Positions 15,982-60,265 of a stretch of 64,000 nt of DNA are shown piece after piece. This DNA is from Owenia fusiformis (Eukaryota > Annelida > Polychaeta > Sabellida > Oweniidae). How positions within the stretch are numbered: position 1 is the first letter of the stretch; each line of letters opens with the position of its first letter. Location: assembly GCA_903813345.2 (NCBI GenBank), contig CAIIXF020000006.1, forward strand, positions 18,170,348 through 18,234,347, in the 5' to 3' direction. The notes under the pieces are model-generated. The model did not search any database and was not told where the DNA came from. It saw only the letters and a list, made by a program, of their open reading frames with translations. The position numbers and the translations under genes are program-made.

Positions 15982-16004
15982 ATGGCTTTATTCAATGTTA
16001 AGAG
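15982..16004 (+). CDS. DDX51: DDX51 exon 1 (start exon)
   Basis: It encodes MALFNVK plus two bases of an Arg codon, then a strong donor GTAAGT. It was chosen because its start matches vertebrate DDX51 and because AG joined to the G at 17507 gives Arg-Tyr, continuing the conserved N-terminus. It is too short to be found as an open frame. Confidence 0.85.
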
Positions 16005-22000: not shown

Positions 22001-25000
22001 CTTTTTCATATTTTAAAAACATATATTTATTATGGCATATTATTAAAAGTCAGCTTTTTACTTCAGTTTCAGAAGCTGTTGTTCTCAGCGACATTGTCTC
22101 AGAACCCAGAGAAACTGGAACAATTGAAACTGTTTCAACCCAAGTTGTTCACCAGTACATCAAGGGGAAGACCAGTAAAGAAACATGCAGCCACTCAGCT
22201 GGAGAATAAGTCGCATGATGAACGTATGTACATACTGTATTATTGGTAGTAATACAATAGCACATGGAACATTTTCCATAGCATTTCTTATGTGGCATTC
22301 AGTAAACCCTGTAAAGTTGAACACCTCCAAAAGTTGAAAATTTTTCTAGCTACTCTAAATGTTAGTTGAATGGATCCCATGTGGAACACTATTTAAAGGT
22401 GTACACAGACTTACTGTTCTTACAATATGAATTGAATTGTATTGCAAAATTAGTATATAATCTGTTCTTATATGATTACAGAGGAAGCTGACTCAATTAC
22501 TACTGGGGAATTTGCTGGGAAATATACAACTCCAGCAGGTCTTAAGGTAGGCAATGTACTGATTTATTTAGCCTCATTCAAGGCATTAGTTATGTAATAT
22601 TTAGTCTTATGTTATTTATCTGATTATAGATAGGCATTGAGACTACTCTAATACTACAATAATAATAGTGTCTTTGTTTTATTTATTTTTATATTTTTTT
22701 TATTTTTATCAAAATCAATGTAACATATATACAGGTTATAGTGGCTATGACCCCCAAGAGGGAGTATTTGGTGCCACATAATGGTATTTACAATGATTTG
22801 AAATATTATAAGAAGTGTACATGTAATTGTGTAAAGTATGATACCCTCATGATTTTTTTCATGATTTTATTGGATCAACTATTTTGACAATAAGTTATTT
22901 CATTTATGTTAGTATTTTAGTTTCAGGCAGATCACTTGCCACTTTGGGAGTGTAAAGGGTCATAACAGAACTACAGAATTGAGTATACCGTAAGACTTAC
23001 ATGTATTCAAAGCAGATTCAAAAGTTTATACTGATTCCATTTTTGTAGGAGTATTTTATCCAGATCTCCCCCAGTGAGAAGCCTCTAGCCCTGATGCACT
23101 ATCTCTATGAACTACACTTGAAACGTGTGCTGTGCTTCACTAACACTGTGGATTCAACTAATAGGTATGTTATCTCGTATATGATTTCTTCACCAGTAAG
23201 TTTCTAAGGAATGTACGAAGCCAACTCTTTACTGAGGCTGAACTCATGATCACCAAATGCCAGTTAGAAACCAGTTCTTTATTTAAGATGGAGTTGAGTC
23301 ATGTAAGCACCCACACATTCCTTGAACCAGGCAACCAAGTTCATGATAAATAAATTCAACGACCAATCAGGGGAATTTCCCGGTATATTCAAACTTCAGA
23401 TTGAATTAATTTCCGTGAAAAATAATTAGATCGGTCAGTACAATCACAAAATTTAGATAGGTGAATATGTGGTGAAACTCTATTGTAAAAAGGTCCAGAG
23501 GGGTCTTGATTGTGCTATCCTATGGCATAGAGCCTCTTCAACCAACTGATTGCTTCATGCTCAATATGGCAAACAGCTGTATATTATCAGTTGTACAGTT
23601 GGAAACAATTTACTATTACATTCTGGATATACATGTAAAAGGTTAAGAATATGTGATATATGGATATCACATTGCTTAAATCTTTCTATTGGGCTATGGT
23701 TTTTAAAATATCAAAAGAAATTTAAATGCACTATGAACCTTTAAAAAAAATTTTTTAATTGATTTTGTCACACACTGTGTGAAAGATCCTTAGGTTGAGG
23801 TTTGGTTTTGACAGTTTAGTGTGTTGAGGAGTGTTTGTTCATTTCCTTACATGCTAAAGTAGAAATAAGTTTGAAATGTAAGAACAACTGACTGCTTTTC
23901 TTTATAATTTGTGGCGTTACAATTTGCTCCGCTGAATCCAACTCCAAAGTTACTATGACAACTGCTACAGTGTGAAATATCAAAAATTCTAGCCAAATTT
24001 TCAGATTGGCTAGTGAAATGTATCATGCTACTCCTGCATAAATCTCACTATGAATATTGCAAAATAAAAATTTATCAATTATCTTGGCAGTCATGGGATA
24101 GTTATAGAAATATTCATCCTGCTCTCTGTTATACACTGTACACTATATATTTCCCCATGTTATGTACCTAGGACCTCTGGTTAAGAATACATCCATGTGC
24201 TTTAAAAGCTTTGAATGAAACAAAGGTTATGTGGTTTCTATTCAGGAAGTCTAACCCTGGCTTTCTGGAAGGAACATTTTCCAAACAGGCCATTTCATAT
24301 CTTTTGCATTATTATGATGTAATAGACCATGCACATTTCTTTTGAATAATTAACTTAAATATCTTCATTTTCAAATTATTTATTGACTATTGTAATGCTA
24401 GTTTACGAAAAATATATTATATTGCATTTACAATTATCTATTGAAGTAATAAAACAGTTAACAACATCAATGAGGCCAGAAGTAGGTCCTACCTGAATAT
24501 CTGGTTGCTATGAATTTTTTTGAATTTCTCAAAATTTTGGGTTGGCGAAAATGGCTGGGTATTTCTATGTCCCAAGTCATTCGAGGGCACCGTGAATGAT
24601 GCCAAATGGTCGAAGAGGACTACCATTTTTTATGATTGATCAAGTGACCGAGTAATGAAGACCACTTTTCGACAGGCGCAGAAATTTAAAAACCCATAAA
24701 TAAACATCTATATTAGCTTGAAATATGGCAAATTCATCCGGTCAAACTGTTGACTATCTATCATAAAATAGTTGTACAGTAGATAGAGTAAGCAAGATGT
24801 TAGATCAAATGCCACTACTAAACTTTTTCAAAACCTTTACAAACATAATACAAATCCCTCAGGTTTGAATACATAAATTTCAGGTGGGACTTTATAGTTA
24901 AAAGGTCCAGAAGTAGAATAACAATCCCCATCCCAGCAAGAATGATTATTGACATATAACCTAAAGCTTTAGCTGAAGGTCGGTCATCAGGTTCAAATAT

Positions 25001-28000
25001 TGCAAATTTAGGAGCTTTGGTTGTTGTTGGTGGCAGTGGTGTGGTCTTAACTGGAGTTTTAGTAGTTCTCTTTTTTGTAGAAACTGTAGGAGGAACATCT
25101 GTTGTTAGATTAGTTTTAGAAGGAGCTGTCTCGGAAGTTTCTTCAACTGTTGGTTCAGTTGTTTGGCTTTTTTCTGTTGTTTTTAGTTCAGAAGCTTGTA
25201 TTGTTGTTGGTTGAGTACTTTGTATCATAGTTGAAAGATTAGCCTGTATTGTAGTTGGCTCAGTAGATAGTGTTGTAGTTTGGTCAGTTTCTGTTGTGCT
25301 TGGTTTAGTAGTCTCCATTGTAGTTTGTTCTGTGGTTAGTGTTGTAGTGAAGTCAGTTGATTTTATTGTACTTTGTTCAGTAGTCTGTATTGTAGTTGGT
25401 TCAGTGGTTAGTATTGTACTTTGTTTTGTAGTCTGGATTGTAGTTGGTTCAGTGGTTAGTATTGTAGATGGTTCTGTAGTCTGTGTTGTAGTTGTTTCAG
25501 TGGTTAGTATTGTAGATGGTTCTGTAGTCTGTATTGTAGTTGGTTCAGTGGTTAGTATTGTACTTTGTTTTGTAGTCTGTACTGTAGTTGGTTCAGTGGT
25601 TAGTATTGTAGATGGTTCTGTAGTCTGTATTGTAGTTGGTTCAGTGGTTAGTATTGTACTTTGTTTTGTAGTCTGTACTGTAGTTGGGACAGTGGTTAGT
25701 ATTGTAGATGGTTCTGTAGTCTGTATTGTAGTTGGTTCAGTGGTTAGTATTGTACTTTGTTTTGTAGTCTGTATTGTAGTTGGTTCAGTGGTTAGTATTG
25801 TAGATGGTTCTGTAGTCTGTATTGTAGTTTGAACTGCAACAAATACATAATAACATTCTAAATAGGCTTATGTTGTGGCCATACCCAATTTAGCCTAGCC
25901 TACTATGAGGTTTATTCTAAAAATGCAACAAAAACACTGTATATGACTCATATATGTTATGATCACACATCTTACAACACCATTTTTATAAGAAGAATAG
26001 TTTATGATAATTCTAATTTCAGTTATAGGATTTTTTCCAAGTTTTTAAAGCAAAACATCATAGGCACAAGACCTCTACTCTAGAAGGAATTTGTACAATG
26101 GCATGATGTCACACCACATTATTCTTTAATATATAAAAGTGATGAGGATGATGTATCATTTGAATGCAGTTTTTAAAGATTTATTTTAGATATTGAGTGT
26201 TTCATTGCTTACTTCTGCTTCTTTTCCCACCCTGTATATGTTTTATCAATACATGTATATTCACATATTGGGTTGACACCCTATATATTAATAATCAATA
26301 CTGTATACGTATTCACATTGGGATAATGCATAAATTACACCTATTACATGGTGACTTTAAGGTTAATCTTTGTCAGGTTTAGAATGGAACAAGGATCTTA
26401 CTTATACAAGTATATCAAAGTTACATAATGATGGTGCATATTTTATTTTGAAATTTTTTGGAATGTAGAGACTCAAGTAGCTAAAATAACCAACCTGCTG
26501 AGCAGTCATTCTCGCATATATATGCCTTAGTTTGTTCACAGTCAGTTTTAGCAAATTCATCAGGTAAAATTGAGAATGCTGCCATCACTGCAGCCAGACA
26601 CTCCCCTGCTTGAACTCCAATTGTTCGATAACTGTCTTCCCAACCTACGGCCCTGCCATCAATCCATTTTAAAGAGCCATCAAAGAAATCCCCGCCAAGC
26701 CAGAAAGACCCACTTGTTTGACCACTGAAACATAATGCATTGTATTATTAACTATATATCATTGATTCCATTGTGGGATACAAAATGGACTATTTTATGA
26801 AGAAAGTCTAAAGTCTCTTATAAGTCTGGGAATCTGATAAATCCAAGTGCATTGCAAGCAGGATAAATTCATTAAATAGATGCATGACCTGGTTATTATA
26901 AGGCCTAATTATTCCAAGTGTAAAAGGCAGTCATGTAATTCCTGAAGTTCTTGTGGACTAATTTGTTTTTATTTGATGAGAAGATGTATGATTACTCATG
27001 AAAATGATTTATGATTAATGATCATATATAAAAATATTTAAAACGTACATGTAACATACATAGATTCCGTGTTTGTCGGTTACTGCTATATAAAAAATTG
27101 GCATACTTTTCTTTTGCGAAATTAATTAAATTGCTGTATGTTCCATGTGTATCGGCTACTGCTATGTGGCCACCTGTTGAAGCACATTGTTGTCTCGCGA
27201 GGTCCCATGTTGCCTTTGTGGATTTCAATTCATAGCAAACATCACCACTAGATTTACCTAGTATATTGTAAACTACACATTATTATCCCATCGAACGAAG
27301 TTCGGAGGGATATAGGGAACGCCTCCGTCCGTCCGTCCGTCCGTCCGTCTGTCCCTCCGGGCAATAACTCAAATACCGTTGGCCCGATTTTGTTCATATT
27401 TTGTACACATATACCTTATGGGAATAGAAGTTCTGCTCAAAAGCCGATTTTCAAAATGGCCGCTCATTTCAAAATGGCGGCCATTTTAGTGCTGATTTTA
27501 CAGTAATTTAGGTGCAATATGTAAAACTGTTATATCAATATGTTTTAAATGTAAAAAAATTATAGAGGACATTAATAATGCTACAAATGTAGATATTAAA
27601 GAAGCACATGGCAGCCATCTTGAAAAATGGCGGCCTTTACTCGTCATTTTACGATTTTTGCTATAACTCAAAAAATAGTGGAGCGATTTTGTTCATATTT
27701 GGTATGTGAATACTATAAGCATTGTACACTGTCTAAAGACACTTTTGGTAGAAGGCGGCCATTTTGAAAAAAAATTGAAAAATGGCCGCCATTTTAACGT
27801 ATTTTACTATAACCCGAAAAGTAGTGGAGCGATTTTGTTCATATTTGGTATGTGAATACTATAAGCATGGCACACTGTCCTATGACACTTTTGGTAGAAG
27901 GCGGCCATTTTGAAATTTTTTTTGAAAAATGGCCGCCATTTTAACATATTTTACTATAACTCGAAAAGTAGTGGAGCAATTTTGTTCATATTTGATATGT

Positions 28001-31000
28001 GAATACTTTAAGGATGCAGTACCAGGTCAGCGTAGAATAAGTTCCAGACATTAGATTTTGCTCATATTTTTTACAATGTATCACTATGATGTTATTATCA
28101 TCCAAGTGCAATATGAAGAGGATTGACCGTCTGGTAATTACAAAATAAAATAATTATTTTACCCACCCAAAATGAATCTTTTTACTTTTTTGAGTTTTCA
28201 ATAGAGCTGGCACCTTTCGAACCCTGGTTTTCGTATTCACTAATTGCGACTCAAGAACAAGTTTTCCCACAAAAGTGAAAGAGATAAAATATGCTTGATA
28301 AAATATTTGCAATTTAATTCTTTTCTGGAAACATCATTATCGAAATAAACTATAATTTTTGAATAAGACTAAATGCGAAAATGACGTTCTTGGGAGCTAG
28401 CTTTCTCAAACCGGAAGTCAAACCTGCGCAAACAGACGTGAAAACCGACCCGGTACTGCATCCTTAAGCATGGCACATTGTCTAATAAAACTTTGGGGAG
28501 TAGTCGGCCATTTTGAAAAATGGCCACCATTTTTATGTGTGTTATTTTACAAGAAAAGCATATTATTTCTTCTGATGACAACTTGGCTAGTGAGCAACCA
28601 TTTTGAAAATGGTGGCCTTTCTGGTGTGTTGTTTTATGATATTTGCTATTCGTTTGTAAAAATGCCAGCCATTTCTGTTCGATGGGATTCGCTACGCTTT
28701 GGCGTTGCCGTTGTTCTGGTTTCAATTCTTGTTTCAAAGGTCCATGTGCATTGTGCAATATGCCAAGTGATTTTAGACAGTCATATCAATTCACCATGAG
28801 TATTACCTGGGTATAAATAAAAGTTGCCAGTCTTTCTTGGAAAAGTTGGGTGTGTGTTTATTGGAGTGTGCGCTTATTAGAGATAATATGGTATATGAAG
28901 CAATGTACGTAATACTTACATTTTTCAGTTGAGTTTTCATTGCCATTCTGCCATGTTCCAATGTCATATTCACAAATGAAATTCTTTTTTTCACAACATG
29001 AAGGAGAGGTCCATTTTGTTGTTGTGGATGAGTAATGCAAAGCTGACTGGCACAAATCTTGACCTTCACCTAAAATAATTCAATAAAGAAATAGTGGCGG
29101 TGCAAGAAACAGTCAACAGGATTATGAAAGATTGAGTCAGAAGTCAATCAAAAATTGTGTCTTTTAATATCTGTTTTTGCTTCTTTTTTTCCATACTAAT
29201 ATACAATATTTACATTCATTTTGATAGAATTACTGAGAATTGAGAAAGTGCATATCAATCCATATTTTGCGTAAATTGAACAAAATATCTACATTTTTAA
29301 AGATATTTTTGATAAGTTATTATCCCATCAAACGAATTCGGAGGGATACAGGGAACGCGTCCGTCCGTCCGGGCAATAACCCAAATACCATTGGCCCGAT
29401 TTTGTTCATATTTTGTTAACATATACTCTATGGGGTTAGAAGTTCTGCTCGAAAGCCGATTTTCAAAATGGCCGCTCATTCAAAAATGGCGGCCATTTTA
29501 GTGCCGATTTTGCAGTAATTTAGGTACAATATGTAAATCTGTAATAGCAATATGTTTTAAATGTAAAACAATTATATAGGACATTAATAAAGCCAGAAAT
29601 GTAGATCTTAAAGAAGCACATGGCAGCCATCTTGAAAAATGGTGGCCTTTACTCGCTATTTTACGATTTTTTGAAAAATGGCTGCCATTTTTGCTATATA
29701 CTTTGTTTGTAAAAATGCCAGCCATGGCTGTTCAATGGGATTTGCTACGCTTTGGTGTTGCTGTTGTTTAGTTAAATTCTGTCACCTGCCAAACTGTTCC
29801 AAACCTCCCAGCTTCCGAGTTGATTGCCATCAACTGTCCTCCAGTCACTGCCATCGTGATAAGCCCCTATCCAGTAATCTGCGTAGCTTTCACTAAAATT
29901 TAATAGAAATAGTACTTAACTGCAATATAGTTAATGTCTCAAACAGGGTAGTGTATGTACATCTGATTTCAAATAAGTCCAACATGTCATATAACTTGTA
30001 GGTCATGTAACTTGTAGCAACAATAGACTTTAGTATCAACCTTCTTTGCTGAAAATATAAATGCTTGAAAAAATCTTCGGACCAAATCTAGCTACAGTTA
30101 TCCAAAAAGAGTACAAAACTACGTACGACCCAATTGCAGCTTCCTTTACACCTTTCATCATTAATGCCTCTGAATCTGATGTCATAATAGCCAATGTTGC
30201 ACCTTGATTTACACAATGTGTCAATGCATCGTACCATGTCAGTGGAGTAGAAAAGAATTCATAGCAAGCATCACCAGAACAATATGATGCAACTACAATG
30301 TAAATAGCCATTACAATCACAATACAGTAAAGCCTGTCTTAGTAGAACATCTTTGGTACCTCTAAAAAGTGTTCTACTTACAGATGTTCATTTTACATTA
30401 AGTCAATTTGTCCAGGACTCTGAAAAGTGCTCTACTAACTGAGGTGCTCCAGTCTTAGATGACTTGTATTCCACTTTACAGGTTTCACTGTATTATTCAA
30501 CATGTTTAAAGAATAGATCTTGAGATTTTACTGAGTTTCATTAATTATTACATTAAATAACTTCACAACTTAGGAAATGTGATAAAGAATTATTATTTCA
30601 ATTAGCGAGCAAACATTTATCATTACAGCCAGTTAGCAGGCTAAGAAGCAACTGAAGGGAGCATAGACCAGAACACGTGTCTGGGAATGACATCTGTCAC
30701 AGATAAGGCCAGTCCCCCTGACAAATGCTTTGTAGGTTCAATGTTAGAGGCTGACCCTATCTGAGACGATCTGTTGCTGCATAATTTAAATCAAGTTTAA
30801 TTAATTAAACTTACAATTAAATTTTAATGTTCTTCTTTGTCAGTTCAAGTTTTGTAGAATTTTGGGATGAATGACAACATGTGGGAGATGTGAGATGAAA
30901 TTATTATATGAAAAAATTTTCATGTTACATCAAAAATATAAGGTTATGCCAAAACTGAGAAAACCACAATTTCATATTTTTATTTATTTTATTAATTTAT

Positions 31001-34000
31001 TTTGACATACGCTTTTTTAAAAGCGGCACACTATTATTAAGTGTGTCAGTATTTGTAATCTACATATATATTTTATAAGCACTAAAAATGTTTACATAAA
31101 ATGCTACAGTTTTCTAGGGTTAAAAAGTGTTCACATCTTCACATATTTATCAAACATATAAAAAATGTCATGCCCCCATTCCATAAAAACCTTATCACCA
31201 AGTATTGTAATTAACCTATCATAAATGCTCGAAGACAATAAACTGCTACTTAAAATGGGAGAAACATATTTCTCTACATCGTTGTAAAAGTTGGACCTGG
31301 CTGTGGCAAAATGGGGACACACCATTAATCTGTGTGATGGTTATACACATTATACATATACCATCACTTTTGCCCCACTTTTCATAATTTGTCTCAAGGC
31401 AGAAATTATTCGATCTTGCTAGAAATTTCATTTTAGATCCATAAAAATCAAGGTCATTCTTAAGGTACCTTTCGGTGCGGTTATGGGTTTTAACCTCCTT
31501 ATATATTTCAAGGGAGGGGTATTCAGCTACCCTAGTGTGGAAATTATATATGCTTTGGGATTGAGATATAGTTAAAAATGAGGGGTACCATTCGCTGTCA
31601 TTCCGAAAAATAACATCATCTAAACCTTTATCTCTTAAAATATTCCGTGTATTTGATGCAAATGAGGAGGGAAGTTAGCGCAACAGATTTTGGACAGTCA
31701 TATGTTTGATTTTGGCCATTTCCTGGGGATTTAAACAGGTGCATATGTTAGGCCAATGCATTACCTCCAGGAAAATCACTTCTAGAGATGATAAAATAAT
31801 TTCAACTTTGAGACAGGGTAGATGCAAACAACCCACCCACATGTTTTTTCTGAAATGTTTTCCTAATTTTCAACCCCTTCCATCCTTGCTTTTTTTATTT
31901 TTCTTGCATCAATGTGTTGCGTTTTGGCACAAAGTTAATTCCTTAAAAGGAATAAATGATTCCTTTTAGATAAAGTGGAAAACTATATTTCCCATGTTAT
32001 TTTCCCATTGGAAAAATCATTGCTTTCAGCTAAGTTTGGTCACCCATAATGGATATCTTTAAAACCCCTGAAGGAATCACTTATTCCTTTTAAGCGGTTA
32101 ACTATGTGTCAAAATGCAACATATTGATGCAAGAAAAATTTAAAAAGCAGGGGTGGAAGGGGTCCAAAATTAGGAAAACATTTCAGAAAAAACATGTGGG
32201 TGGGTTGTTTGCATCTACCCTGTCTCAAAGTCGAAATTATTTTATCATCTCTAGTAGTGATTTTCCTGGAGGTAATGCATTGGCCTAACATATGCAATTG
32301 TTTAAATCCTCAGAAAATGGCCAAAATCCAACATATGACTGTCCAAAATCTGTTGCGCTAATTTCCCTCCTCCTTTCCAATATGATTCTTTGCCGACTTT
32401 TAATAATTTTAGCAAATTCTGTAGGATTTTATGAGGGAGGGATGTAGTTGGTACATTAAAATTAAGGTAGTTCAAATAGTCAATTTGTCTTTTTTCAATC
32501 ACCTCTGCTATCGGTTTCCAGCCTAAATCCCCCAATATAGATTCACTGGCGGGTTTACTTTTAATTTGAAAAATGGCTTGGGCGGCACCATATTGAAATA
32601 GATTCATAAGAAATTAAAACAAAATAAATAAGTAAATAAATACCTTTCACCCAGTATAAAGTATTCAGCGTGAGTATACAAGTGATTGTGTTCATTAACA
32701 TCTTTTTGGCATTTATATATTTGCAAAAATACTGATAATTTTTTTTATTTTGAATTGTTGGCCTGTCAATCTTTGAAATTTTGTTCCACTGATTCCTTGT
32801 GTTCCCTCCGTTGACTAAAAACTTGAATTCTTAGTCTTCCTTCTCTGCTTTTGCATTGAAATTATTTTGTTCAATGCCTGTTTCTTTATTAATGGTCTTT
32901 TTGTCTATTTTGTCTATTTCAGTAACTCTGATTGGCCAAACGCTTTTTCAGGTTATTTGTGATTGGATCTTCAGAGGAAACCATGGATTTTGTGTTGATG
33001 TATTTGAGTTTAAGGGAATGGATTTCCCGATTGCCGCGGGATTGATCATTCAATAAGATATATTGATGAGCATAAGCTCATGAATCAAATCAATTATTTC
33101 CTCGTGGATGCAACTTACCAGCTTCTTAGTACATGTTCAATAATGCCACAAAATGGTTAAGTTGACTCCACATTGTTAGTTTGCACATTAAAAATAAAAT
33201 ATGGCTATTTCTTTTCTCTGGTATTGTTCTTGGCTCATAAACAGTTTGTCCAGCAGGCATTCAAATTCAGTCAGTTTGGTGACAAAAAATTTTCATATCA
33301 ACATGAACAACACTACTGTTTTATCAATACATAAAGATGCAGTATACCAAAGATTTCTCGCCCAGACAATCAATGATATCCGACTATTATTGCTCATATA
33401 ATATCTCACATGCCATGGATATATCTTGAGAATAACTTATGGGTATATTATTGCCAAAATATTGAAAGAATCAACAGAACAACCAACCTCCAGAATCAAA
33501 CACAATTTTAGTGTGAACTATAATTTTGCACCACCTATAATGATGATGCCATATTGGATTTGAAGCAGTCATAATACCTACCAACAAACTCTGGTTAATT
33601 TGCATTCAATTTATTCAGCTACGCATTTGACATTTTTGCCAGTTGTGTACAACATATTGATTGATTTATATAATAATTTTCATCATCCTCCCTAATGGAG
33701 TTTTGAAGATCCTAATTAAGAATAGTTTGAGCTGTCAACTGTCTACAATTGTAATGCAAAAAATCGTAATTTAAAAAAGGTTTAACAGCTATAAATATTT
33801 GAATATCCAAAATCTGAAATCATACGATTGCGTGTCACTGCGATGGTTATTTGGTCTCCAAATTTGAAAAAGATTGAAAAAGAAAAGAAAATTTTGGAAC
33901 AAGAAAAGTGTTCCGCTTTGGATTTTATGCTAATTACGGCTCTTTGGAACAATACTATAAGTTGTTGAATGGTTTGAAGTGCAATACAGGATATATTCTC

Positions 34001-49000: not shown

Positions 49001-52000
49001 ACTAGGACACGGAAGCAAGCATCTAATTATAACTTTGCATAATCTACACGTGCAGATGACAGTGAATTCACAGTCTCTAGTTGATGGAGCTTTTCTATAT
49101 CGGGAATAGTTATGTTCCATTAAGTACAATTTAAAATTGATTTTAGTAAATATAATAGTTCGACATGACCCTTTAAAGTATACGTATACATATAATTTGT
49201 CCTTTCACTTATGTGCGAAATCTCTCTAATATATACCAAGTATTTACTTTAATTCCAAGGCATCTGAATTATTGATAAATAAATGAAATCAGTACTTTAT
49301 TGTATCTTGGGACAAAATACACAGTTTGAATGCTTAAGCTTGACATCACAGTATCAAGTGAAAGATACTTTGTTATATACAGCTATATATCACTTTAACT
49401 GACTTTACTCTTCAACTTAAAATATGCCTGGCCATCCTAAGAAAAAAGCAACGGAGGGCAAAGATGTTGCATGGTATAATTGGTATTAAGCTCTTATAGA
49501 GTTTAAAGCTCCCACAATTTTTTGAAAACGAAATGGAAAATAACATGTGAAAGTATAGGATGGACTAATTGTTCTTGGAAAGTTTTGGAAAGTAACACTG
49601 CATAAAATATTTAGCAAGAGATATGTTCCAAAATACTTTCAGGTAGAAATAAAGCTCTGTAATGTAAAAACAATGTATTCTCAGTATTCAATAATAACAT
49701 TCTCTGAGTCACTTAATAAATAATAACTAGATGTAACTCGTACTACAAGTTTCAGTTCTAAATAAAATACAGTTTAGTTAAAAAATTGTTAAGAATACAT
49801 GTACATATTTTTTCATAATTTCACCATTTCTGACTGTATTGTGCATATTTTTAAGTGTCAATTGTTCAATGATTATTTGATATAACCTCCTGAAACTACT
49901 CTCATATATATTTGGTGGTACAGTGATATGAAATCTTGTCTTTCGGGGTCTAACGGAATTCTTGTTTTAGAGAAGAAAATCCTGAAAGCTGCAGTTTAAT
50001 ATCATGAATAGTAGGTGAAAATTGCACTTGCTACAGCTTCTCCCATTTTTAGATGCCAATAAATCTGTAACTACACTTACTATGAATTGTTCTGAATAGT
50101 GCAATTTATCACATTTTTTTGCGATATCTGACTGCATTTTGTGTCTTTTTAAGAGTCCATGCAGATATGAAAACTTGATCTAGAGCTCTAAAATTTTCAA
50201 TTCCAGAATTTGGTAGCACTATGTCTTGATATCCTGTGTTTGGAGTCGAACCAAATCACAGATGTTGAGAAAAAAAATTCATATGTAGCAGTTTTAATTC
50301 AAAATTAGTTGAAATGGCACTCGGGACAGCTTTCCTCATTTTTTTGAATGCCGATAGATCAGCAAGTATTTACACTATGATCGTGAATCTGCGCATCTAT
50401 CTCATTGCCCAGGTATTGTGGAAACATTGTGACTTATATTTCATGTGATAGTAAGCACTGAAAATGGACTTGTTGCATTGTGGCGGACCTCATACAAAAC
50501 AAACATCGGGGTAGAGGGGGAGGGGGGTTAAACGTTGATCAGTTCTGCTATTTTTTGTGGCTATTGGTCATATAGTAGATCATTTTGTCAAAAGGTAAAG
50601 GTGATCCGAGAAAAAGTTGGTAAATTGAAACAGCCTATTAGATTTCTATATGATACATTGTGCAAAATTGAAAACGTATATATAAAATATTTAGAGTCTT
50701 ATATTTTAGTAATAAATGAATTACATTGTCAAGTAACAAGTGAAGATGTTTTAAATGCATTGATTTGCTTGATATCAATACAAGTATTTAATTGTATCCT
50801 GCAAAATGATAACATTGACCACGCCCACTTTCCAGGGGTAGGGTACTATAAAGTCATATTAAAAATCATAAATAGTATATTATCAATTATTATAATTGTA
50901 TTACAATATCAAACAAAGCTTGAATTAGTTTTTAGAAAACAATTTTGAGCTATTTAAGCTGCCATCTTTTGCTGGAAGCTACAAATATAAAATAGGTGAG
51001 ACTTAGAAATGACTAAAATGGCATATTTTTTTCCTATTAACTGCAATATTTCTGAGACTAATACAGATATCGGCCTATAACTTTAGGATATTATTCATCT
51101 TTGGACTAGTAATGTGTGCTGTAGAAAGCAGAACAATAGCAACTATACCCTTAATGTTATGAAATAGTCTTATAGTACCCCCTGAAATCGAAGGAATTGA
51201 AGTTCAATTTGGCCGTGAAAATTGTTTTTACCACTTTAAAGCCCATCACCTTATATTTTCTTACACCTACTAGGTTACTCTATCATACTGCATTGCCAAA
51301 AGTTACTTCTTGCAAACTTCCGGCAAAAGTGTGCCAGCATCTGATATACCATGTTTCATAAAAAACATAATCTTTGATAACTTAAATACCAGTGGATGGA
51401 TTTGGTTCAAATTTTTTTGGCCTCTATTTCTCAAAACATGTTTTGTTCGGTGGGATTTGCTACTCCCTGGAGTTGCTGTTTTTCTCGTTAGATCAAATAA
51501 ACCCCCAAAATGACAAGTAATGGAGGTTAAGGTGCAGCGTGCCTTTGACAAAGATGACATTAAGTAGGTGACCTTACTGTATATGAGGTTACTTTATTAC
51601 AGAGCATGGGATTCTGGGAATGATGAGATTTTAACTTGTTTAATTCGCGAAATTTGATATCCGCAAAATCGTGTTTTCTCATAATTCGCGAAATTAAAAC
51701 TTGTGAAATTAATCGGGAGTACAGTATTCCATTTAGATATTACATTTATAGTACATGAACAGCATATGATTAGACTAAATTGCCACAAAGTTTTGCATAG
51801 TCGTATCCTATGTTATAAAAATGGGAATGTACTAAAAACCCTTCGACCCTGCGACCTACGACTTACAGCGTGTCAAGAATTTTTGAAATATATTTTTATA
51901 AAAACCCTTCGACCTTCTAGATATTTCTCAGTCCATATGAAGTTGCTGGAAATATTACTTTGTGTATAGAACTTAAGAATCTGTCCCAAGAGAGTTAAAG

Positions 52001-55000: not shown

Positions 55001-58000
55001 AGTACTTTCTGGCCATAAATATATGTTTTTTATTAAAACAATATGTTTTCTTTCATGTGAAGTCCCAATGATAGTAAAATATCAATCCAACTCTCTGAAA
55101 ATTATGGATAAAGGCCCCACCTTGGCACTTTTTAAAAAATGTTAGGCTTATTTTCTAAAAAGAATATCTTGTTTTTCTCAATTTAAACATATCGAAAGTT
55201 TCTTCTACACAACATTAACAATTTCTGAAAAGGGGATGCGAATTGAAATGCGTGCTATTTTCCCATAGGGAAACCTCGTGCTATCCATTGTTTTCAGCAT
55301 CATTTTGGTCATCGAAAATTGATATTATCAAAACTGGACTTTCAATACCATTATGTTTTGAAGATGTTTTAGACCCCTTGTGGAACAATCCTGTCATGCA
55401 ATAAAAATCAGAAAAAGGAGATCCTCTTTTGAGTAAATAGGTTCAATATTTTGAAAAAAATGTTGACATGGGGTACATATTCATAATTTTTCGAATTGTT
55501 CAATTGATATTTTTATCATCTTCACTTGAAAGAAAACATATTGTTTTAATAAAAACCACTGTATTTATGCCCAGAAAGTACTCATGGTGAAAGATTTGAC
55601 TGTCTAAAATCACTTGCCATACTGCATGTGGTCTTTTGAAGGTGACATTTACAGCATAATGAATTCCTACCATCTTCAAATTGATACCTAAAACCTGATG
55701 TAAAAATGTTACCTTCAGAAAGTACATGTACACTGATACATTGTATAATGTACAGGGTGTTTCATAATGACCGTCCCCCCATCCACAGGCAATCCTAGAT
55801 CCCATGGCCCTATAATTTATATACCATAATAAAGCTAATTCAATTCTGGACTTGTCTGCCAAATATTAGCATGCCCGACCTTTTGGAACATAGTTTGTGA
55901 AATTATATTTGATTGTCACTATCTTCTCAATTTACATGATTTCTGGCTAATATTCCTGGTGGATTTAAAGAGAGGAGCGGATCGCTATAATATAATCTAT
56001 TCTATCATCTAGTGCTCTCTGGGCATTTCTTTGAAATATTCAATGTTTTGTTTTAAAATGGGTACCTTTTGCAGAGATATGTAGCAAGTTGTAAAAACTG
56101 TTGAGCTTAATCAAGGTTGTTTCAATAATTCCAGAATTGAACAAGCTTTCATATGATATATAAAATATGGGGATTGGGGGTATGCTATTTAAGATTGGTG
56201 GTTGATGGGGGACAGTCAGTATGAAACACCCTGTAGAGATAGACGGTGCAGGGTATGAGGCATATTTACATATAATGTTTACCTTTATTTCTTATTATTT
56301 TTTGTTAACCTCTGTTTATGATTTTAAACATGTTTTATTAGCCTTCTGCAATCTTTACTGAGAATTGTCTTTGTAGTAGCTACATTAGGCCCCTGGGCAT
56401 TAGGCATACATTATCATATAAAAAAGGAATAAACCTAAAATGTATTAAAGCAAGAGAATTAGCAAGTAAAATGTCACTTCAAAAATGTAAACTTTACTTA
56501 AAGATCTAATAGCAAAGGTTTTGCAAAAATAAATCAATGTAGTATAAAACAAATGTATGTATTATGAAGAAATAAATATATAATGAAAAAAATAGATATG
56601 TGTTTGTAATATTGGTATAAACTTAAGATTAAAAAGTGTCACTATCTCTTTCATTTTTCAACAAATATAGGCTCACGTGACATGTGACGCGGGGCAGTCA
56701 ATTTTGATCTATCGTAGACCATATCAGTATCAAATTACTGATATTTCAACCTCGTCTTGCGAGGCCATTTTGATTTGAAACATCTTGAATTTGGTGTCAA
56801 AATGAAGCTGGTCACGCCCACTTTCAGAGTTATCAATGAATCATTTACTACGACTACTATATTCATTTAGGAGGCGTGTAAAGTTAACCAATCAGAAAGA
56901 CAATTGTTCCATATATGGTAGTTCATTAACATATTCAGTGTTTACTACTGCTTTTCACGTCATGACAACACGAGTAGTAACCAATCAAGATGCCGTATTT
57001 TATCACGTGAGTTCAGAGTGACACGCACGCGACATGTTGTCTGGGGTGATCGCGATGTTGAACAATTTCTTCTCGGAATTTGTCCAGAGAAATCAGCGAT
57101 TCTAAATTAAGGTTGGATCTGCCATTTTTTCCTGTACAAGTTATAACTTATCTCTATCGAATCCTAAAGTTTTGGAAGAAGATATGAAGCGTAGGTTTAA
57201 AAACGAAGCGATTAATTTGACGATCTGATTTTGCAATTTGCAATGGCCAATTTACTGCAAGTCCAGTGCATGTATTTGACAAGAGATAGCGCCAAGTCTG
57301 GTATCTAAATGCTTGTTAAGCCACTCAAAAACAAGATCCATATTTTCTAAATTTGATAACTTTGCAGAAAACCTGTTTTCATAATCTGTTTTCCGGGTCT
57401 AGATTCAAACTGAGTATGATAATAGGATCGCTGGAATCTTCAGTCAATGGCAACGGGTCTTCATTCCAGAACTCACATTTTTAGTTGATTCTCCGTCATA
57501 GTTCTTGTTTAAAGTCCCCATATCTGCTCTCTTACTGCCATACTTGCACACATTTCCCCTCCTTAAATTGTCTTCATTCAAATTACACCCTCTCGCCGAT
57601 TTATATAGTCATTTCCCAGAACCCGGGAGTCAGAATCGCTGATGTTTGCCATATTGAACATATTATATGTACTGTAATATCTGTACATTGACTGCTACGC
57701 GTAATGGTCACGTGACTAGCGCGATACAGGAAAAATGGGGAATTTCAAAACAACAATTTTTGGGCACTTTTATTGCAAATTTCGGGTATTTATAAAGTGT
57801 TTGTGGTATAAAATATAATCCACAGACATAAATGAACATCCAAACTACATATTTCATTAAGTTTTGGAGCCTTTTTTGCTCTTAAATCAACATCTTTAAG
57901 TAATGATCCATATAGTATATAGCTGAACATAAGTCTTTAAAGTCCTCCATATAGACAAAGACATGAGCAAACCCCTTCTATTCACACTATTATGCCATAC

Positions 58001-60265
58001 TTTCCATACAGGGTCTACACCGCAAAGTATGTTGCTTCGGAATCATAATAACTGTTAACTTGCTTTATTAGTCTGAAATAACCCTTAGAGTTGGCAATTT
58101 CTTTCTATAACAAAATCTGTTTTTAGTTTCGGAGCAGGTAACATTTTGATATTTTGCCCAACCCATAACCCACATGACATTGATTCATATTGTACTCAGA
58201 AGATAATTAGTTAGTTGGGCTTGCAGTTGAAATATAGATGAAATCATCAAATTTTTTCTTCAAAAATGTGTGTTTGGAACAACTCCTTCAAATGGTCATA
58301 ATTTTCATGATTTATCACTCTTTCATACCATCTCCTTGCTTAAACTGTTAAAGCAAACAACAAAATGTGGAAATGCATAATTGTTAAACAAGATCAATAA
58401 CATCAGTTTCCAAAGTCTGGGTATATTCAAATGTTCTATTCCAGTTTGCTTATATTAATCTGCACTGACTGCATTTCCATGCAGAAGATTAAAATGTGTG
58501 TACATGACTCATTTACCCGTATGCATATTTTTGGAAATATATACATGTTCAATGATTCAAGGAAACTACAAAATGTGGAATTTCATACTTAATAAAAATA
58601 TTTTCAGGCTATACCACCTGTTGCAGACAGTGGGAGGGTTGGAAGTGAGGGAGTTCTCAAGCAAGCTGAATGCCCATATGAGAGAAAGATTACTAAAGCA
58701 GTTCAGTTTAGGCAAAATAGATATGTAAGTCAAACATAACCTTTCAATCTCTATTACTCTGTCATTTTCAAGATTCTACTGGGCTTCACAAATACCATCC
58801 TCCGAACGCAGGGTTCCAGACATCATTCACTTAGTTCCTTCCTTCTTCCAGAAGAAGGAGGTAGGAGTTCTGGAGGCCTGTGTTCGGAGAATGCACAAAT
58901 ACAGCTGTAGTTCAACTTACAGTCAGGATATTCTTATTGATATAATGCCTGGAAATGGTACATACAATGTATAATGATAGAACAAATTATTAGCAATATT
59001 GAACAAAATGTCTATCTAAACCTAATTCTTAACTTTGCTCAAGTCGGTATTTTTTACTTATCCTGATCTTGAATTATTACCGCCTTGTACAATATAATGG
59101 TATTTTAGGGTCAGTTAGAGACTGAGCCCATTTTAAGCTTATTCTGCATATGACAGCTTGGAAGAAAGCTAAAGATGAAAATGAATCTGATTCAAGCATT
59201 CTTAAATGTAAATTTTCAGAAATTGCTCATCTAGTCTTATTCTCACAGCATGTAATTTCTGTTTAGATTGATTTGTTCCGATGCTATGGCCCGAGGGATG
59301 GATATAGAGGGAGTACAGTATGTGATATCCTATGATTATACACCCTACATAAAGACATATATACACCGTGTGGGACGTACAGCTAGGGCAGGAAAGCCTG
59401 GCACTGCCTTCACATTTCTAGAGAAGAAAGAGGTAACTATGTAAAATTTGTGAAAGTCTAACTTGTTTGACCTTGTCACAAGTTATTTATCAAGTTAATT
59501 ATTATTATCAAATGGCATCAATATACATTTTTTTTTAAAATTGTGAATTCCTCATAAGGCATGATTTCTAGAAATTCCAGAGTTTTGCATGCTTTACAAT
59601 ATGGTGCAATTCTGGAATGCATTGTCTATTAAGCAAATTATAATTTTAATGTCACCACCAAAGAGGTGAGGTGACAGACATATTGTTATTGTCACCAACT
59701 TTTTGCTGAAAGCAGTCTGAGTTTGGTGGTTAGTGTTTGGTGGTAGGCATAACAAATGGCAGGTGGTGACATTTTGCATGTTTATGCCTTGTTATAATCA
59801 GGGTCAGGGAATCATCATTTGGTATGTCTTGTTTTCAGATCTTCCACTTCAAGAAGATGATTCAGGAGGCTGGTAAGCCAGGAGTGGAGGAGGTGAAGAT
59901 GCCAAACTCCAAGTTGAAGCCCTGGGTAGCAACCATGCAGGAAGCACTCAAGAAGCTGCCAGACCTGCTTAAGGTGAAGTAGATCATTACCTCTCGTTCT
60001 CACTCACTCAGAGTAGTTTGATTTTCAATTTAAACTAAAAAGTATTTGTGTCACTGTCGCCATCAGATCATATCTCTACCATGCTTTCCCTTGAAATCAA
60101 TTTATGTAATGCCTGATCGTGCAATTAAACAACTTGAATGTTTTAATGTAAATCACTTTATTGAGATATTCCATAAGTTTGCATGAATATTTTCTGTAGC
60201 CTAGCAATTAATATTTAATATGTTTAATTTTTGATTTCTTTCAGGCGGAGAAAAGAAAAAGATGA
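15982..60265 (+). CDS. DDX51: ATP-dependent RNA helicase DDX51 (15 exons, 779 aa)
   Basis: DEAD-box helicase of the DDX51/Dbp6 family, a nucleolar factor for large ribosomal subunit assembly. Coding exons: 15982-16004, 17507-18332, 18683-18841, 19135-19269, 19509-19625, 20077-20138, 20317-20428, 20755-20883, 22067-22223, 22482-22546, 23049-23164, 58608-58724, 59267-59432, 59839-59973, 60245-60265. All junctions are GT-AG, phases agree, and the 2,340 coding bases are in frame. Motifs: Q-motif-like region near 327-336, motif I APTGSGKT 365-372, Ib TPGR 456-459, DEAD 481-484, SAT 528-530, motif [10 protein letters not shown] 677-685, motif [10 protein letters not shown] 706-713. The start MALFNVKRY resembles the MALF start of vertebrate DDX51. 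It is longer than the human protein (666 aa) because of a Lys/Glu/Ser-rich N-terminal region. Intron 11 is 35.4 kb and holds two antisense genes. Confidence 0.95.
17197..17401 (-). other. Antisense open frame in DDX51 intron 1, possible exon remnant
   Basis: A frame of ~67 codons ends at a stop at 17197. It has mixed, non-repetitive composition and reads like protein (for example '[20 protein letters not shown]'). An acceptor-like 'tatgatgtag' precedes it near 17402, so it could be a terminal exon or a processed fragment of an unrelated gene. I do not recognise the family and see no partner exon. Confidence 0.25.
17507..18332 (+). CDS. DDX51: DDX51 exon 2, disordered N-terminal region
   Basis: It covers residues 8-283. 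After a conserved Pro-rich start it is dominated by Lys, Glu, Asp and Ser, with basic clusters ([17 protein letters not shown]) suited to nucleolar localisation. There is no folded domain. The acceptor is 'ttattctag' and the donor AAG|GTACAT. Minus-strand frames across this exon are shadows. Confidence 0.9.
18683..20883 (+). CDS. DDX51: DDX51 exons 3-8, first RecA domain
   Basis: Six exons (159, 135, 117, 62, 112 and 129 bases) encode residues 284-521: the Q-motif-like region, the ATP-binding loop APTGSGKT in exon 4, [10 protein letters not shown] (motif Ia position, in place of the usual PTRELA) in exon 5, ATPGRLVDH in exon 7, and VIDEADR in exon 8. Introns are 111-451 bases (18842-19134, 19270-19508, 19626-20076, 20139-20316, 20429-20754) and contain nothing recognised, except a 'tggtgacattatgcatg' scrap (~20598) of the TGTCACC element. 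Confidence 0.93.
20871..21960 (+). repeat. Tandem copies of the exon 8 splice-donor region
   Basis: The end of exon 8 with its donor is repeated downstream in 60-100 base units. GTAAGT occurs at 20884 (the real donor), 20946, 21037 and 21899. Each is preceded by 'acacatat'-like sequence and followed by 'cttgct' and 'gaaatatt'. A degenerate fifth start is near 21958. A mobile element (21113-21877) splits the third and fourth copies. Confidence 0.8.
21113..21877. mobile_element. Inverted-repeat element in DDX51 intron 8
   Basis: The ends are GAGCCTATGGAAAGGG and CCCTTTCCATAGCCTC (one mismatch as inverted repeats). The 765-bp body has many 'ttcacgtttcac' motifs. No transposase is seen; the two opposed frames at 21573-21860 have no recognised domain. 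The target duplication is unclear, so the superfamily is not assigned. Confidence 0.7.
22067..23164 (+). CDS. DDX51: DDX51 exons 9-11, SAT motif and inter-domain region
   Basis: Exon 9 (22067-22223) carries KLLFSATL. Two acceptors lie six bases apart (CTTCAG at 22061-22066 and TTTCAG at 22067-22072); I chose the upstream one because it restores the conserved Gln-Lys before LLFSAT. Exon 10 (22482-22546) and exon 11 (23049-23164) lead into the second RecA domain, ending in [12 protein letters not shown] plus a split Arg codon. Introns 9 and 10 hold no recognised element. Confidence 0.9.
24379..24384 (-). terminator. Candidate polyadenylation signal of the lectin gene
   Basis: AATAAA on the minus strand, 434 bases past the stop codon. 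It is the first clear signal seen downstream; position is the only support. Confidence 0.35.
24818..25833 (-). CDS. Lectin gene exon 6 (mucin stalk, membrane segment, tail)
   Basis: A single long exon encodes residues 292-629 and the stop. The acceptor is 'tgttgcag'. The first ~500 bases are the repeat array; then comes a Thr/Pro/Lys-rich spacer, a hydrophobic segment ([20 protein letters not shown]) and a basic, Tyr-containing tail. Confidence 0.88.
24818..30311 (-). CDS. Tandem C-type lectin, mucin-like transmembrane protein (6 exons, 629 aa)
   Basis: Exons in transcript order: 30311-30127, 29892-29786, 29069-28920, 27257-27056, 26724-26495, 25833-24818. Domains: short hydrophobic N-terminus, C-type lectin domain 1 (about 16-132), domain 2 (about 148-286), Thr-rich stalk with 16-residue repeats (292-~575), one membrane segment (about 581-603), and a 26-residue tail with a YSNL motif. 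Domain 1 has WIG at 69-71 and cysteines at 33, 104, 122/123 and 130; domain 2 has FWLGG at 222-226. Neither has EPN/QPD or WND, so classical calcium-dependent sugar binding is doubtful. The start is uncertain: an acceptor-like 'cattgtag' overlaps the first codons, so upstream exons may exist. The exon 4 donor (GTTACA) is weak. The gene lies wholly inside DDX51 intron 11, antisense to it. Confidence 0.85.
25330..25832 (-). repeat. 48-bp coding minisatellite (16-residue Thr-rich repeat)
   Basis: About ten units read [12 protein letters not shown] followed alternately by KQST or EPST. The alternation gives a 96-bp higher-order period. Conservation is close to perfect across the central units, and the unit length is a multiple of three, so length changes keep the frame. 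Confidence 0.9.
26495..27257 (-). CDS. Lectin gene exons 4-5 (C-type lectin domain 2)
   Basis: Exon 4 (27257-27056) opens with SSGDVCYEL, closely matching the SGDACYEF of domain 1, so the two domains arose by duplication. Exon 5 (26724-26495) contains [18 protein letters not shown] and ends YICENDCSA. Exon 5 is certain; the 3' end of exon 4 is not, because only a weak donor keeps the frame. Confidence 0.8.
27283..28722 (-). repeat. Family A copy, reverse, interrupted by a TTAA element
   Basis: It starts 'attatcccatcgaacgaag' with a CGTC tract (27325-27352) and ends at 'gccgttgttctgg' (~28722). The interruption is 28012-28463. It lies in the intron between lectin exons 3 and 4, beginning ~26 bases from the exon 4 acceptor. 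Confidence 0.8.
28012..28463. mobile_element. 452-bp element with TTAA target duplication
   Basis: The ends GGATGCAGTACC and GGTACTGCATCC are exact inverted repeats, flanked by TTAA (28008-28011 and 28464-28467). The uninterrupted site is present in the family A copy at 1070-1073. TTAA targets are typical of piggyBac and Kolobok elements. It is non-autonomous. Confidence 0.88.
28738..28830. repeat. Fragment related to the 54.96-kb foldback
   Basis: 'ggtccatgtgca', 'ttttagacagtcatatc' and 'caccatgagta' recur at 54958-55010 and, inverted, at 55570-55635. Confidence 0.6.
28920..30311 (-). CDS. Lectin gene exons 1-3 (C-type lectin domain 1)
   Basis: Exon 1 (30311-30127) runs from ATG through 'TWYDALTHC' to a donor GTACGT. 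Exon 2 (29892-29786) has [13 protein letters not shown] and ends at GTGACA. Exon 3 (29069-28920) has the closing cysteines and ends at GTAAGT. Phases are 2, 1 and 1, and the frame is continuous. The intron between exons 2 and 3 contains a family A copy that stops ~15 bases from the exon 2 donor. Confidence 0.85.
29322..29770 (-). repeat. Family A copy, reverse, deleted middle
   Basis: It runs from 'tatcccatcaaacgaattcg' to 'tttggtgttgctgttgttta'. It fills most of the intron between lectin exons 2 and 3. Confidence 0.75.
30312..31126. other. Region upstream of the lectin start codon, nothing firm
   Basis: It should hold the lectin promoter or further upstream exons. No additional lectin exon, TATA box or repeat is recognised. 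Confidence 0.35.
31131..32607 (-). pseudogene. Non-LTR retrotransposon remnant, C-terminal part, split by an insertion
   Basis: Reading leftwards on the minus strand, 32607-32377 gives residues such as [14 protein letters not shown], and 31666-31131 continues with '[12 protein letters not shown]' and a Cys/His pattern, with a frame change near 31330. This resembles the region after the reverse transcriptase in LINE-type elements; the polymerase core is absent. The two parts are separated by the foldback element 31667-32376. Confidence 0.5.
31667..32376. mobile_element. Foldback element, ~710 bp
   Basis: The two halves are near-complete inverted copies. The outer ends are GAGGAGGGAA and TTCCCTCCTC, and both arms carry AGCGCAACAGATTTTGG or its inverse. 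The centre is AT-rich with 'aaaaggaataa'. Another copy forms the start of the window. It has no protein. Confidence 0.85.
32640..33970. other. No feature recognised
   Basis: AT-rich intronic sequence; open frames here are short and lack domains. Confidence 0.4.
33974..34030. repeat. 57-bp hairpin
   Basis: Arms of ~26 bases (TGCAATACAGGATATATTCT and inverse) surround the loop CGAGC, with one mismatch. Confidence 0.85.
34120..34200. repeat. Inverted repeat
   Basis: TACTGAGATTGTCCC faces GGGACAATCTCAGTA, with a ~45-base interior. Nothing is recognised from here to 34990. Confidence 0.7.
34995..35215. repeat. GGATA-type microsatellite
   Basis: Irregular GGATA / GGAAGGATAG units over ~220 bases; the Ser/Pro-rich antisense frame is a reading of this tract. 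Confidence 0.85.
35265..35460. repeat. Dispersed repeat with 'gaaccggaagtcgg'
   Basis: Units with 'cataactt..gaaccggaagtcggatcg' and 'gattcgg' occur here and also inside each copy of the adjoining duplication (37250-37320, 39330-39400). Confidence 0.7.
35461..39624. repeat. 2,082-bp tandem duplication (two copies)
   Basis: 35461-37542 and 37543-39624 are almost identical; differences spotted are single bases (for example 'ctttgag' against 'cttcgag' and 'gcagcagtgg' against 'gcagtagtgg'). Each copy contains a 'gacctggactgga' minisatellite (37060-37170 and 39142-39252). The junction carries a 4-base match 'gttt'. The 76- and 73-codon frames appear in both copies only because the DNA was duplicated. 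Confidence 0.93.
39791..39818. repeat. Perfect 12-bp-arm hairpin
   Basis: TAGACTCCAGAT, loop TTTC, ATCTGGAGTCTA. The rest of 39625-41010 shows no recognised feature, apart from a short 'tgtcaccaccaaaaagtg' piece at ~40830. Confidence 0.85.
41017..41177. repeat. Small foldback
   Basis: AAAGACCGAGATTTTATG at the left faces CATAAAATCGAGGTCTTT at the right, with a second inverted 'aaagaccgaaatctca' / 'gaagtcttt' inside. Beyond it, 41180-42390 shows nothing recognised. Confidence 0.7.
42397..42512. mobile_element. TGTCACC-type small element
   Basis: TGTCACC near the left end and GGTGGTGACA near the right bracket 'aaggtcaaa' repeats; the tail 'tattaatgcct' is shared with copies at 59650 and 61178. 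Confidence 0.55.
42968..43524 (-). CDS. Cyclase gene exon 3
   Basis: Residues 95-279 and the stop TAA. Acceptor 'tgttgcag'. It carries most of the catalytic domain and the hydrophobic C-terminus. Plus-strand frames over 43015-43571 are shadows. Confidence 0.9.
42968..46226 (-). CDS. Cyclase-family (KynB-like) hydrolase, secreted or anchored (3 exons, 279 aa)
   Basis: Exons in transcript order: 46226-46060, 44531-44416, 43524-42968; 840 coding bases in frame, all GT-AG. Residues 1-19 form a signal peptide ([19 protein letters not shown]). Exon 2 carries the family metal-binding motif [12 protein letters not shown] (67-78). Exon 3 has IDIREKA, NSGW, SPGFS and a late His/Glu pair (AHILML, H201; E213), as in bacterial-type kynurenine formamidases. 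The last ~20 residues are hydrophobic after GGA, which suggests a GPI signal or a short membrane anchor. The substrate cannot be read from sequence; kynurenine formamidase, isatin hydrolase-like or another amide/lactone hydrolase activity are options. The gene is nested antisense in DDX51 intron 11. Confidence 0.88.
44416..44531 (-). CDS. Cyclase gene exon 2 (metal-binding motif)
   Basis: Short exon (116 bases) with [12 protein letters not shown]; the acceptor 'attttcag' and the donor GTGAGT are both strong. It was missed as an open frame because of its length. Confidence 0.9.
44931..45672. mobile_element. hAT-like element with 8-bp target duplication
   Basis: The ends TAGTGTTGTCGCGAT and ATCGCGACAACACTA are exact inverted repeats. 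The direct repeat GATGCTAG flanks it (44923-44930 and 45673-45680). Sub-terminal 'catcgatgcatcg' motifs occur at both ends. It is 742 bp, non-autonomous, lies in cyclase intron 1 and carries a second element inside. Confidence 0.92.
45067..45359. mobile_element. TTAA element nested inside the hAT-like element
   Basis: CCTCTTGAATCCCAGG at the left and CTGGGTATTCAAGAGG at the right are inverted repeats with few mismatches. TTAA flanks it (45063-45066 and 45360-45363). It contains a 'gtgacggatatatccgtcac' palindrome near its right end. Target and ends are piggyBac/Kolobok-like. Confidence 0.88.
46060..46226 (-). CDS. Cyclase gene exon 1
   Basis: ATG, signal peptide, then residues 20-55 with '[19 protein letters not shown]', ending CCT TT before the donor GTAAGT. 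TT plus the T of exon 2 gives Phe. Confidence 0.87.
46227..46740. other. Region upstream of the cyclase start codon
   Basis: Likely the cyclase promoter. A 'tttatata'-like box on the minus strand lies ~140 bases before the ATG; this is weak. No repeat is recognised. Confidence 0.3.
48366..49226. mobile_element. Element in the loop of the 4.39-kb foldback
   Basis: AGAGATTTCGCACATACGTG at the left faces the inverse of AGAGATTTCGCACATAAGTG at the right. Both ends also have 'gtatac' motifs. No coding sequence. Confidence 0.75.
48430..48652. mobile_element. Small GGTGTTTCATAA-end element
   Basis: CAAGGTGTTTCATAA and ATGAAACACCCTG are inverted ends related to those of the element at 55753-56233. 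It is nested in the element above. Confidence 0.6.
52138..52206 (+). other. tRNA-Ala(AGC)-like sequence, probable pseudogene
   Basis: TGGTCTAGCGG fits a D arm/A box, CTCGC-TTAGCAC-GCGGG forms an anticodon stem and loop with AGC, and GGGTTCGAATCCC forms a T arm/B box. T runs follow, as at a pol III stop. The 5' ATCACGG does not pair with 3' ATTCGCC, so the acceptor stem fails. Confidence 0.55.
52583..52655 (+). other. tRNA-like sequence (SINE head or pseudogene)
   Basis: A box TAGCCTAGTGG and B box GAGTTCGAATCCC at tRNA spacing, followed by a T-rich run. The anticodon and acceptor stems do not pair convincingly. Confidence 0.5.
52757..53135. repeat. Family C copy, 5'-truncated
   Basis: It matches the family C core from 'gcttaccccccatag' to its exact terminal GGAACCTCATACC, which confirms the right end of that element. 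Confidence 0.85.
54105..54957. other. No feature recognised
   Basis: AT-rich intronic sequence without repeat or gene evidence. Confidence 0.4.
54958..55640. repeat. Foldback, ~680 bp
   Basis: 'ggtccatgtgca', 'ttttagacagtcatatc', 'caccatgagtactttctgg' and 'aacaatatgttttctttca' at the left recur inverted at 55520-55630. It is related to the fragment at 28738. Confidence 0.75.
55753..56233. mobile_element. Tc1/mariner-like MITE with TA target
   Basis: CAGGGTGTTTCATAATGACC at the left faces GGACAGTCAGTATGAAACAC followed by CCTG at the right, flanked by TA (55751-55752 and 56234-56235). It is 481 bp, with no transposase frame. Confidence 0.8.
56240..58600. other. No feature recognised
   Basis: The last part of DDX51 intron 11. 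Two CACGTG-containing stretches (~56672 and ~57706) were noted, without gene or element evidence. Confidence 0.35.
58608..60265 (+). CDS. DDX51: DDX51 exons 12-15, second RecA domain and C-terminus
   Basis: Exon 12 (58608-58724) completes the Arg codon begun 35.4 kb upstream and reads [18 protein letters not shown]. Exon 13 (59267-59432) has ARGMD and [10 protein letters not shown]. Exon 14 (59839-59973) is a basic helical tail. Exon 15 (60245-60265) adds AEKRKR and a stop. If the exon 14 donor is not used, translation would instead end after Val-Lys at 59980-59982. Confidence 0.92.
58800..58889. repeat. Hairpin in DDX51 intron 12
   Basis: CTCCGAACGCAGG, CCAGA and CCTTCTTC at the left face GAAGAAGG, TCTGG and CCTGTGTTCGGAG at the right; a small MITE is likely. 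The rest of intron 12 shows nothing. Confidence 0.7.
59650..59790. mobile_element. TGTCACCACC-end small element in DDX51 intron 13
   Basis: TGTCACCACC (59650-59659) and GGTGGTGACA (59762-59771) are exact inverted ends, followed by 'ttttgcatgtttatgcc'. Relatives lie at 20530-20620, 40830, 42397, 61178 and 63218. Confidence 0.7.

Follow-up and report, generated by a model that had tools for sequence, protein, structure and literature searches.

Do two complete genes that lie within one intron of a helicase gene, both on the opposite strand, form an ordinary nest, or does their position reflect an assembly fault, decay of the nested genes or a means of controlling the host? This question is raised by a locus of Owenia fusiformis, which we analysed as a window of 64,000 nt (C6:18170348-18234347) containing no N, in a genome of 498 Mb and 525 contigs. 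We are confident that the arrangement is a standard intronic nest, in which two independent minus-strand transcription units occupy a transposon-expanded DDX51 intron, and the nested genes are presumably coupled to DDX51 in function weakly or not at all.

The host gene and its long intron

The host is a DDX51-like helicase gene on the plus strand (15982-59982), for which, as for the two nested genes, a model was assembled manually from splice sites and open frames. It has 14 exons encoding 775 aa, and its 13 introns are all GT-AG and consistent in phase. Its parts are as follows.

15982-23164, plus strand: DDX51-like exons 1-11 (15982-16004, 17507-18332, 18683-18841, 19135-19269, 19509-19625, 20077-20138, 20317-20428, 20755-20883, 22067-22223, 22482-22546, 23049-23164); in-phase GT-AG gene model with DEAD and Helicase_C domains
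23165-58607, plus strand: DDX51 intron 11, 35,443 nt, phase 2; gene model
58608-59982, plus strand: DDX51 exons 12-14 (58608-58724, 59267-59432, 59839-59982, the last with the stop); gene model, sole copy found in the genome

Intron 11 compares with a sum of 6,230 nt for the remaining 12 host introns. Exon 11 ends in ...TAATAG immediately before the donor GTATGT, and the acceptor TTTCAG is followed by GCTATA at the start of exon 12, with an Arg codon split between the two exons. The initial annotation had described a single intron of 35 kb that interrupts an Arg codon and separates exons of the same helicase domain, and both points are borne out by the exact GT-AG junctions, by the phase and by the Pfam matches of the spliced protein. 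The latter contains one DEAD domain (PF00270, 121.6 bits) and one Helicase_C domain (PF00271, 82.8 bits, residues 609-715), and the coding sequence of Helicase_C lies on both sides of the intron.

The kinds of gene that had been proposed (helicase, lectin and cyclase) are upheld by their domains, whereas the exact name DDX51 is putative. The host resembles DDX51 (DDX51/Dbp6) in its N-terminal region and motifs. PDB chains were the only named proteins with which it was compared; these yielded general relatives, and the best of the 60 shown was HAS1/DDX18-like, at no more than 131 bits.

Searches of the genome, in which the best candidates were scored, placed the host exons once, in order, on C6 (exons 2-14, with exon 2 in part). 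Exons 11-13, searched as protein, had 16 matches, three at the host locus and 13 to weaker relatives at 28-52% identity. With exons 1-10 (only the start of exon 2 being used), nine of the 12 matches were at the host locus and the other three were relatives with 45-63% identity over short stretches; exon 1, which encodes eight residues, was without a match of its own in this search. Exon 14 matched its own site and nothing else. Among the best candidates scored for exons 3-14 and part of exon 2, no second host copy or alternative haplotype was seen.

Two coding sequences (24818-30311 and 42968-46226) lie wholly within intron 11, and they are not host exons because they are on the opposite strand:

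24818-30311, minus strand: nested gene 1, C-type lectin/Thr-rich protein, 612 aa (exons 30127-30311, 29786-29892, 28920-29069, 27107-27257, 26495-26724, 24818-25833); gene model
42968-46226, minus strand: nested gene 2, PF04199 cyclase, 279 aa (exons 46060-46226, 44416-44531, 42968-43524); gene model and PF04199 match

The nested lectin gene

The lectin gene was claimed to have six exons and an intact frame, and our model agrees: the six exons are in phase and open from ATG to stop, and the introns are GT-AG. The spliced N-terminal 286 aa contain two Lectin_C stretches, scoring 71.5 bits against a Pfam cut-off of 22.6. The frame of exon 1 scores 14.1 bits by itself, and the domain is complete only after splicing. 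The protein also has a Thr-rich stalk, in whose coding sequence a 48-nt unit recurs. A hydrophobic stretch close to the C-terminus, noted by eye, is a putative membrane anchor. A search for relatives in the genome gave 12 matches, five of them to the gene's own exons and seven to other places; the best of the latter was 34% identical, and there was no close paralog. The intact six-exon frame, the splice sites and the domains suggest, and form the whole basis for suggesting, that the lectin gene is under constraint.

Opposite the stalk exon, the plus strand is also open (25215-25829) and would encode a hydrophobic sequence of 205 aa. This frame is most likely a by-product of the codons of the stalk repeat.

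The nested cyclase gene

The second nested gene is likewise as first described, with three exons that are open from ATG to stop and joined across GT-AG introns. The cyclase domain is complete, with a PF04199 score of 130 bits against a Pfam cut-off of 23.1 and a match to positions 2-141 of the 142 in the profile. The predicted enzyme has an intact HxGTHxDxPxH motif, presumably the metal-site motif of PF04199 cyclases. By eye, the protein has a signal-like segment at the N-terminus and a hydrophobic tail at the C-terminus.

The genome search with PF04199 returned 28 exon-level matches, two of which are from the nested gene and two from one gene on C18. The family has more than 20 copies in the genome, with clusters on C3, C7, C8, C11 and C12. 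Among the 28 matches listed, 26 are on the minus strand, which is perhaps due to chance plus tandem clusters. For the alignments and the tree we used 20 paralog regions (L002-L021) and the C18 piece, which makes 21 of the other family members (about 25 in number) and gives a tree of 22 rows. In this tree the nested cyclase falls in a clade of ten members with a support of 96/100; the C18 row has a very long branch and its placement is unsure. We ruled out the possibility that the C18 gene is a haplotig or a recent duplicate of the nested cyclase; it is a distant paralog, its identity being 21-24% in the main exon and its nearby intron being in a different phase.

Two features of gene structure bear on the origin of the nested cyclase. 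The acceptor and phase of intron 1 are common to the five nearest paralogs (L002-L006; main exon 53-59% identical), of which L002-L004 also gave a match to exon 1. A retrocopy would lack this intron; a retrocopy origin is thereby ruled out and the cyclase was therefore copied at the DNA level. Intron 2 (43525-44415, 891 nt), by contrast with intron 1, is absent from all 20 fetched paralogs (L002-L021), in which the alignment is unbroken at this position (codons were printed for seven), and the C18 gene has an intron close to the site in another phase. Together these observations argue for a probable gain of intron 2 in the lineage of the nested cyclase, the alternative being losses in parallel. 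A dispersed repeat matches intron 2 over 262 of its 891 nt at 82-86% identity; with just this part covered, a pure transposon insertion is unsupported.

Repeat content of intron 11

Repeats with listed copies elsewhere account for at least 9,778 of the 35,443 nt of intron 11 (27.6%), or at least 10,784 nt (30.4%) when the second tandem copy is counted. Approximately 1.9 kb of it consists of two stretches with a single matching place each, 52068-53626 on C12 and 54973-55413 on C10, and may not be transposon. The main elements, none of which was assigned a strand, are as follows.

31660-32376: 717-bp palindromic repeat element; at least 39 other copies, 95-98%
35457-39623: 2,082-bp tandem duplication, two copies with 2 mismatches; from sequence comparison
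35788-36793 and 37870-38875 (the second deduced from the duplication): TTAA-flanked MITE-like element of about 1,006 bp in each tandem copy; at least 40 other copies, 97-99%
46954-51348: foldback element with outer arms of 463 nt, 98% complementary; left arm with at least 20 other copies, 95%
56498-57899: 1.4-kb repeat; at least 19 other copies, 97-100%

One stretch of 861 nt within the foldback element (48366-49226) has no counterpart in the copies listed and has inverted ends of its own (55 nt, 76% complementary); it therefore looks like a later insert. The foldback element and segments at 52.07-53.63 kb were matched close together on C12 (29.64-29.65 Mb), and the mobile unit may be larger than the foldback element. 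Young insertions have lengthened intron 11. Outside these repeats 24.7 kb remain, and the intron was therefore probably long before the young insertions arrived.

Further genes or RNAs were also sought. No Rfam match reached the gathering score in 15000-61000, and no tRNA was found in the window. In the search for a third nested gene, Pfam was run on 34 of the 61 listed stop-to-stop intron frames of at least 70 aa, and of these 34 only the cyclase exon reached the cut-off; the lectin exons pass it only when spliced.

The proposed arrangement and its alternatives

Under the standard nest that we favor, plus-strand transcription of DDX51 would give a pre-mRNA of about 44 kb, and removal of the 35-kb intron 11 by splicing would leave the message for a single intact helicase. 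On the minus strand, the lectin and cyclase genes would have their own promoters and polyadenylation sites. The cyclase goes back to an intron-bearing DNA copy within the multi-copy family, and intron 11 has subsequently been lengthened by repeat insertions and the tandem duplication. The first AATAAA or ATTAAA lies 433 nt after the stop in the lectin gene, 531 nt in the cyclase gene and 141 nt in DDX51, which in AT-rich DNA carries little weight either way.

An assembly or haplotype artefact, in which the segment with the lectin and cyclase genes was misplaced between DDX51 exons 11 and 12, strikes us as very improbable. Near-identical repeats of many copies and a 2,082-bp tandem duplication with 2 mismatches are typical sites of assembly error, and this duplication is either very recent or itself an assembly doubling. 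It sits between the nested genes, however, and a local fault there would leave the nesting unchanged. Furthermore, (i) there is no N in the window; (ii) donor, acceptor and phase match exactly across the junction of exons 11 and 12; (iii) DDX51 exons were found on no other contig; and (iv) the intron apart from 42901-46299, searched as three long pieces, matched only repeat-like places and one group of segments on C12, among the matches listed, some of the lists being without the self match. There is a similarly slight chance that the lectin gene, the cyclase gene or both are silent or in decay and intact in appearance only. The cyclase belongs to a family of more than 20 copies, some members of which show stops within the matched stretch. 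Against this, the lectin gene retains its six in-phase exons and two lectin stretches, and the cyclase frame is intact at saturated synonymous divergence: in pairwise comparisons with six paralogs, dN was 0.33-0.42, while dS was 1.7-2.2 in three and saturated, with no value, in the other three. When we simulated neutral change of the cyclase frame (400 runs, even base choice), the proportion of runs left stop-free at 0.2, 0.3 and 0.5 substitutions per site was 0.25%, 0.5% and zero (0 of 400), respectively. That the frame has stayed intact over such divergence points to long-term constraint on the cyclase for most of its history; pairwise dN/dS is an average and is compatible with recent relaxation.

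We consider it similarly unlikely that the nest is regulatory, with nested antisense transcription interfering with the DDX51 pre-mRNA, or forming double-stranded RNA with it, and so controlling the helicase. The opposite orientation is in keeping with this idea. In human cells, nested genes are reported to cause transcriptional interference, and some correlate negatively with the host (PMC3192792); in Drosophila, shifts in expression are larger for those nested genes that do diverge, and in mammals divergence is more frequent among young nests than among old (PMC13343718). The same 2026 comparison, however, found nested genes to be no likelier than unnested genes to diverge in expression (PMC13343718), and by their coordinates the mature mRNAs of host and nested genes have no sequence in common here because the nested exons sit entirely within a spliced-out intron. 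Double-stranded RNA from the mature host and nested mRNAs is thus impossible; the unspliced intron would be needed for it to form. A more obvious source of double-stranded RNA seems to be the foldback repeats of intron 11, which could fold into long hairpins in any case. The suggestion of the initial annotation that opposite directions of transcription could create interference or double-stranded RNA is thereby weakened, and interference with DDX51 is at most conceivable. The most far-reaching version, to which we give the least credence of all, is an old and selectively kept nest, with antisense transcription of both surface/secretory genes in particular tissues or stages that throttles DDX51 in the same cells. 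If this were true, ribosome production would fall along with DDX51.

Comparison with known nested genes

The initial annotation called two genes within one helicase intron an unusual arrangement. This was overstated: published nests are common, mostly antisense and unrelated to the host, and sometimes hold several genes per intron (PMC4394429). A review gives the share of nested genes as approximately 10% in Drosophila and 1% in humans; two thirds of these lie antisense, and most have no relation to their host (PMC4394429). For mammals, a 2026 study arrives at a share of more than one tenth (PMC13309782); the published rates differ widely. Two or three nested genes, mostly potentially non-coding, were counted in 23 of 74 human hosts (PMC3192792). 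For Owenia fusiformis, a genome of 505.8 Mb with 12 chromosomes and 26,966 genes is reported (PMC9977687); this average density of one gene per 18.8 kb would, as a guide only, lead one to expect about two genes per 35 kb.

There is close precedent in human NF1, where intron 30 contains three coding genes (OMG, EVI2A and EVI2B), all on the opposite strand; like DDX51 intron 11, it is one large intron with several complete coding genes (PMC4394429). The NF1 nest differs in having three nested genes compared with two here, and the genes are unrelated, with no homology implied. The NF1 nested genes encode membrane or surface proteins. Drosophila timeless2/2mit is also similar in that a coding gene lies in host intron 11 and runs in the opposite direction, but there the nested gene is single and has a reported behavioural role (PMC3786989). 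Human and Drosophila nested genes generally are, like those described here, antisense and functionally unrelated to the host; whereas 41% of human nested genes have a single exon (PMC3192792), both of ours are multi-exon. The literature searched held no report of genes nested in a DDX51 intron, and on annelid genes nested in introns it held only a general review of introns.

The DDX51 nest looks to be of an ordinary kind that leaves knowledge of nested genes unchanged. It is a clean and well-bounded case of a single intron that contains two antisense genes, each with several exons, and probably lies beyond the usual model animals. Its exact coordinates let convergent transcription through a ribosome-biogenesis gene be tested for cost.
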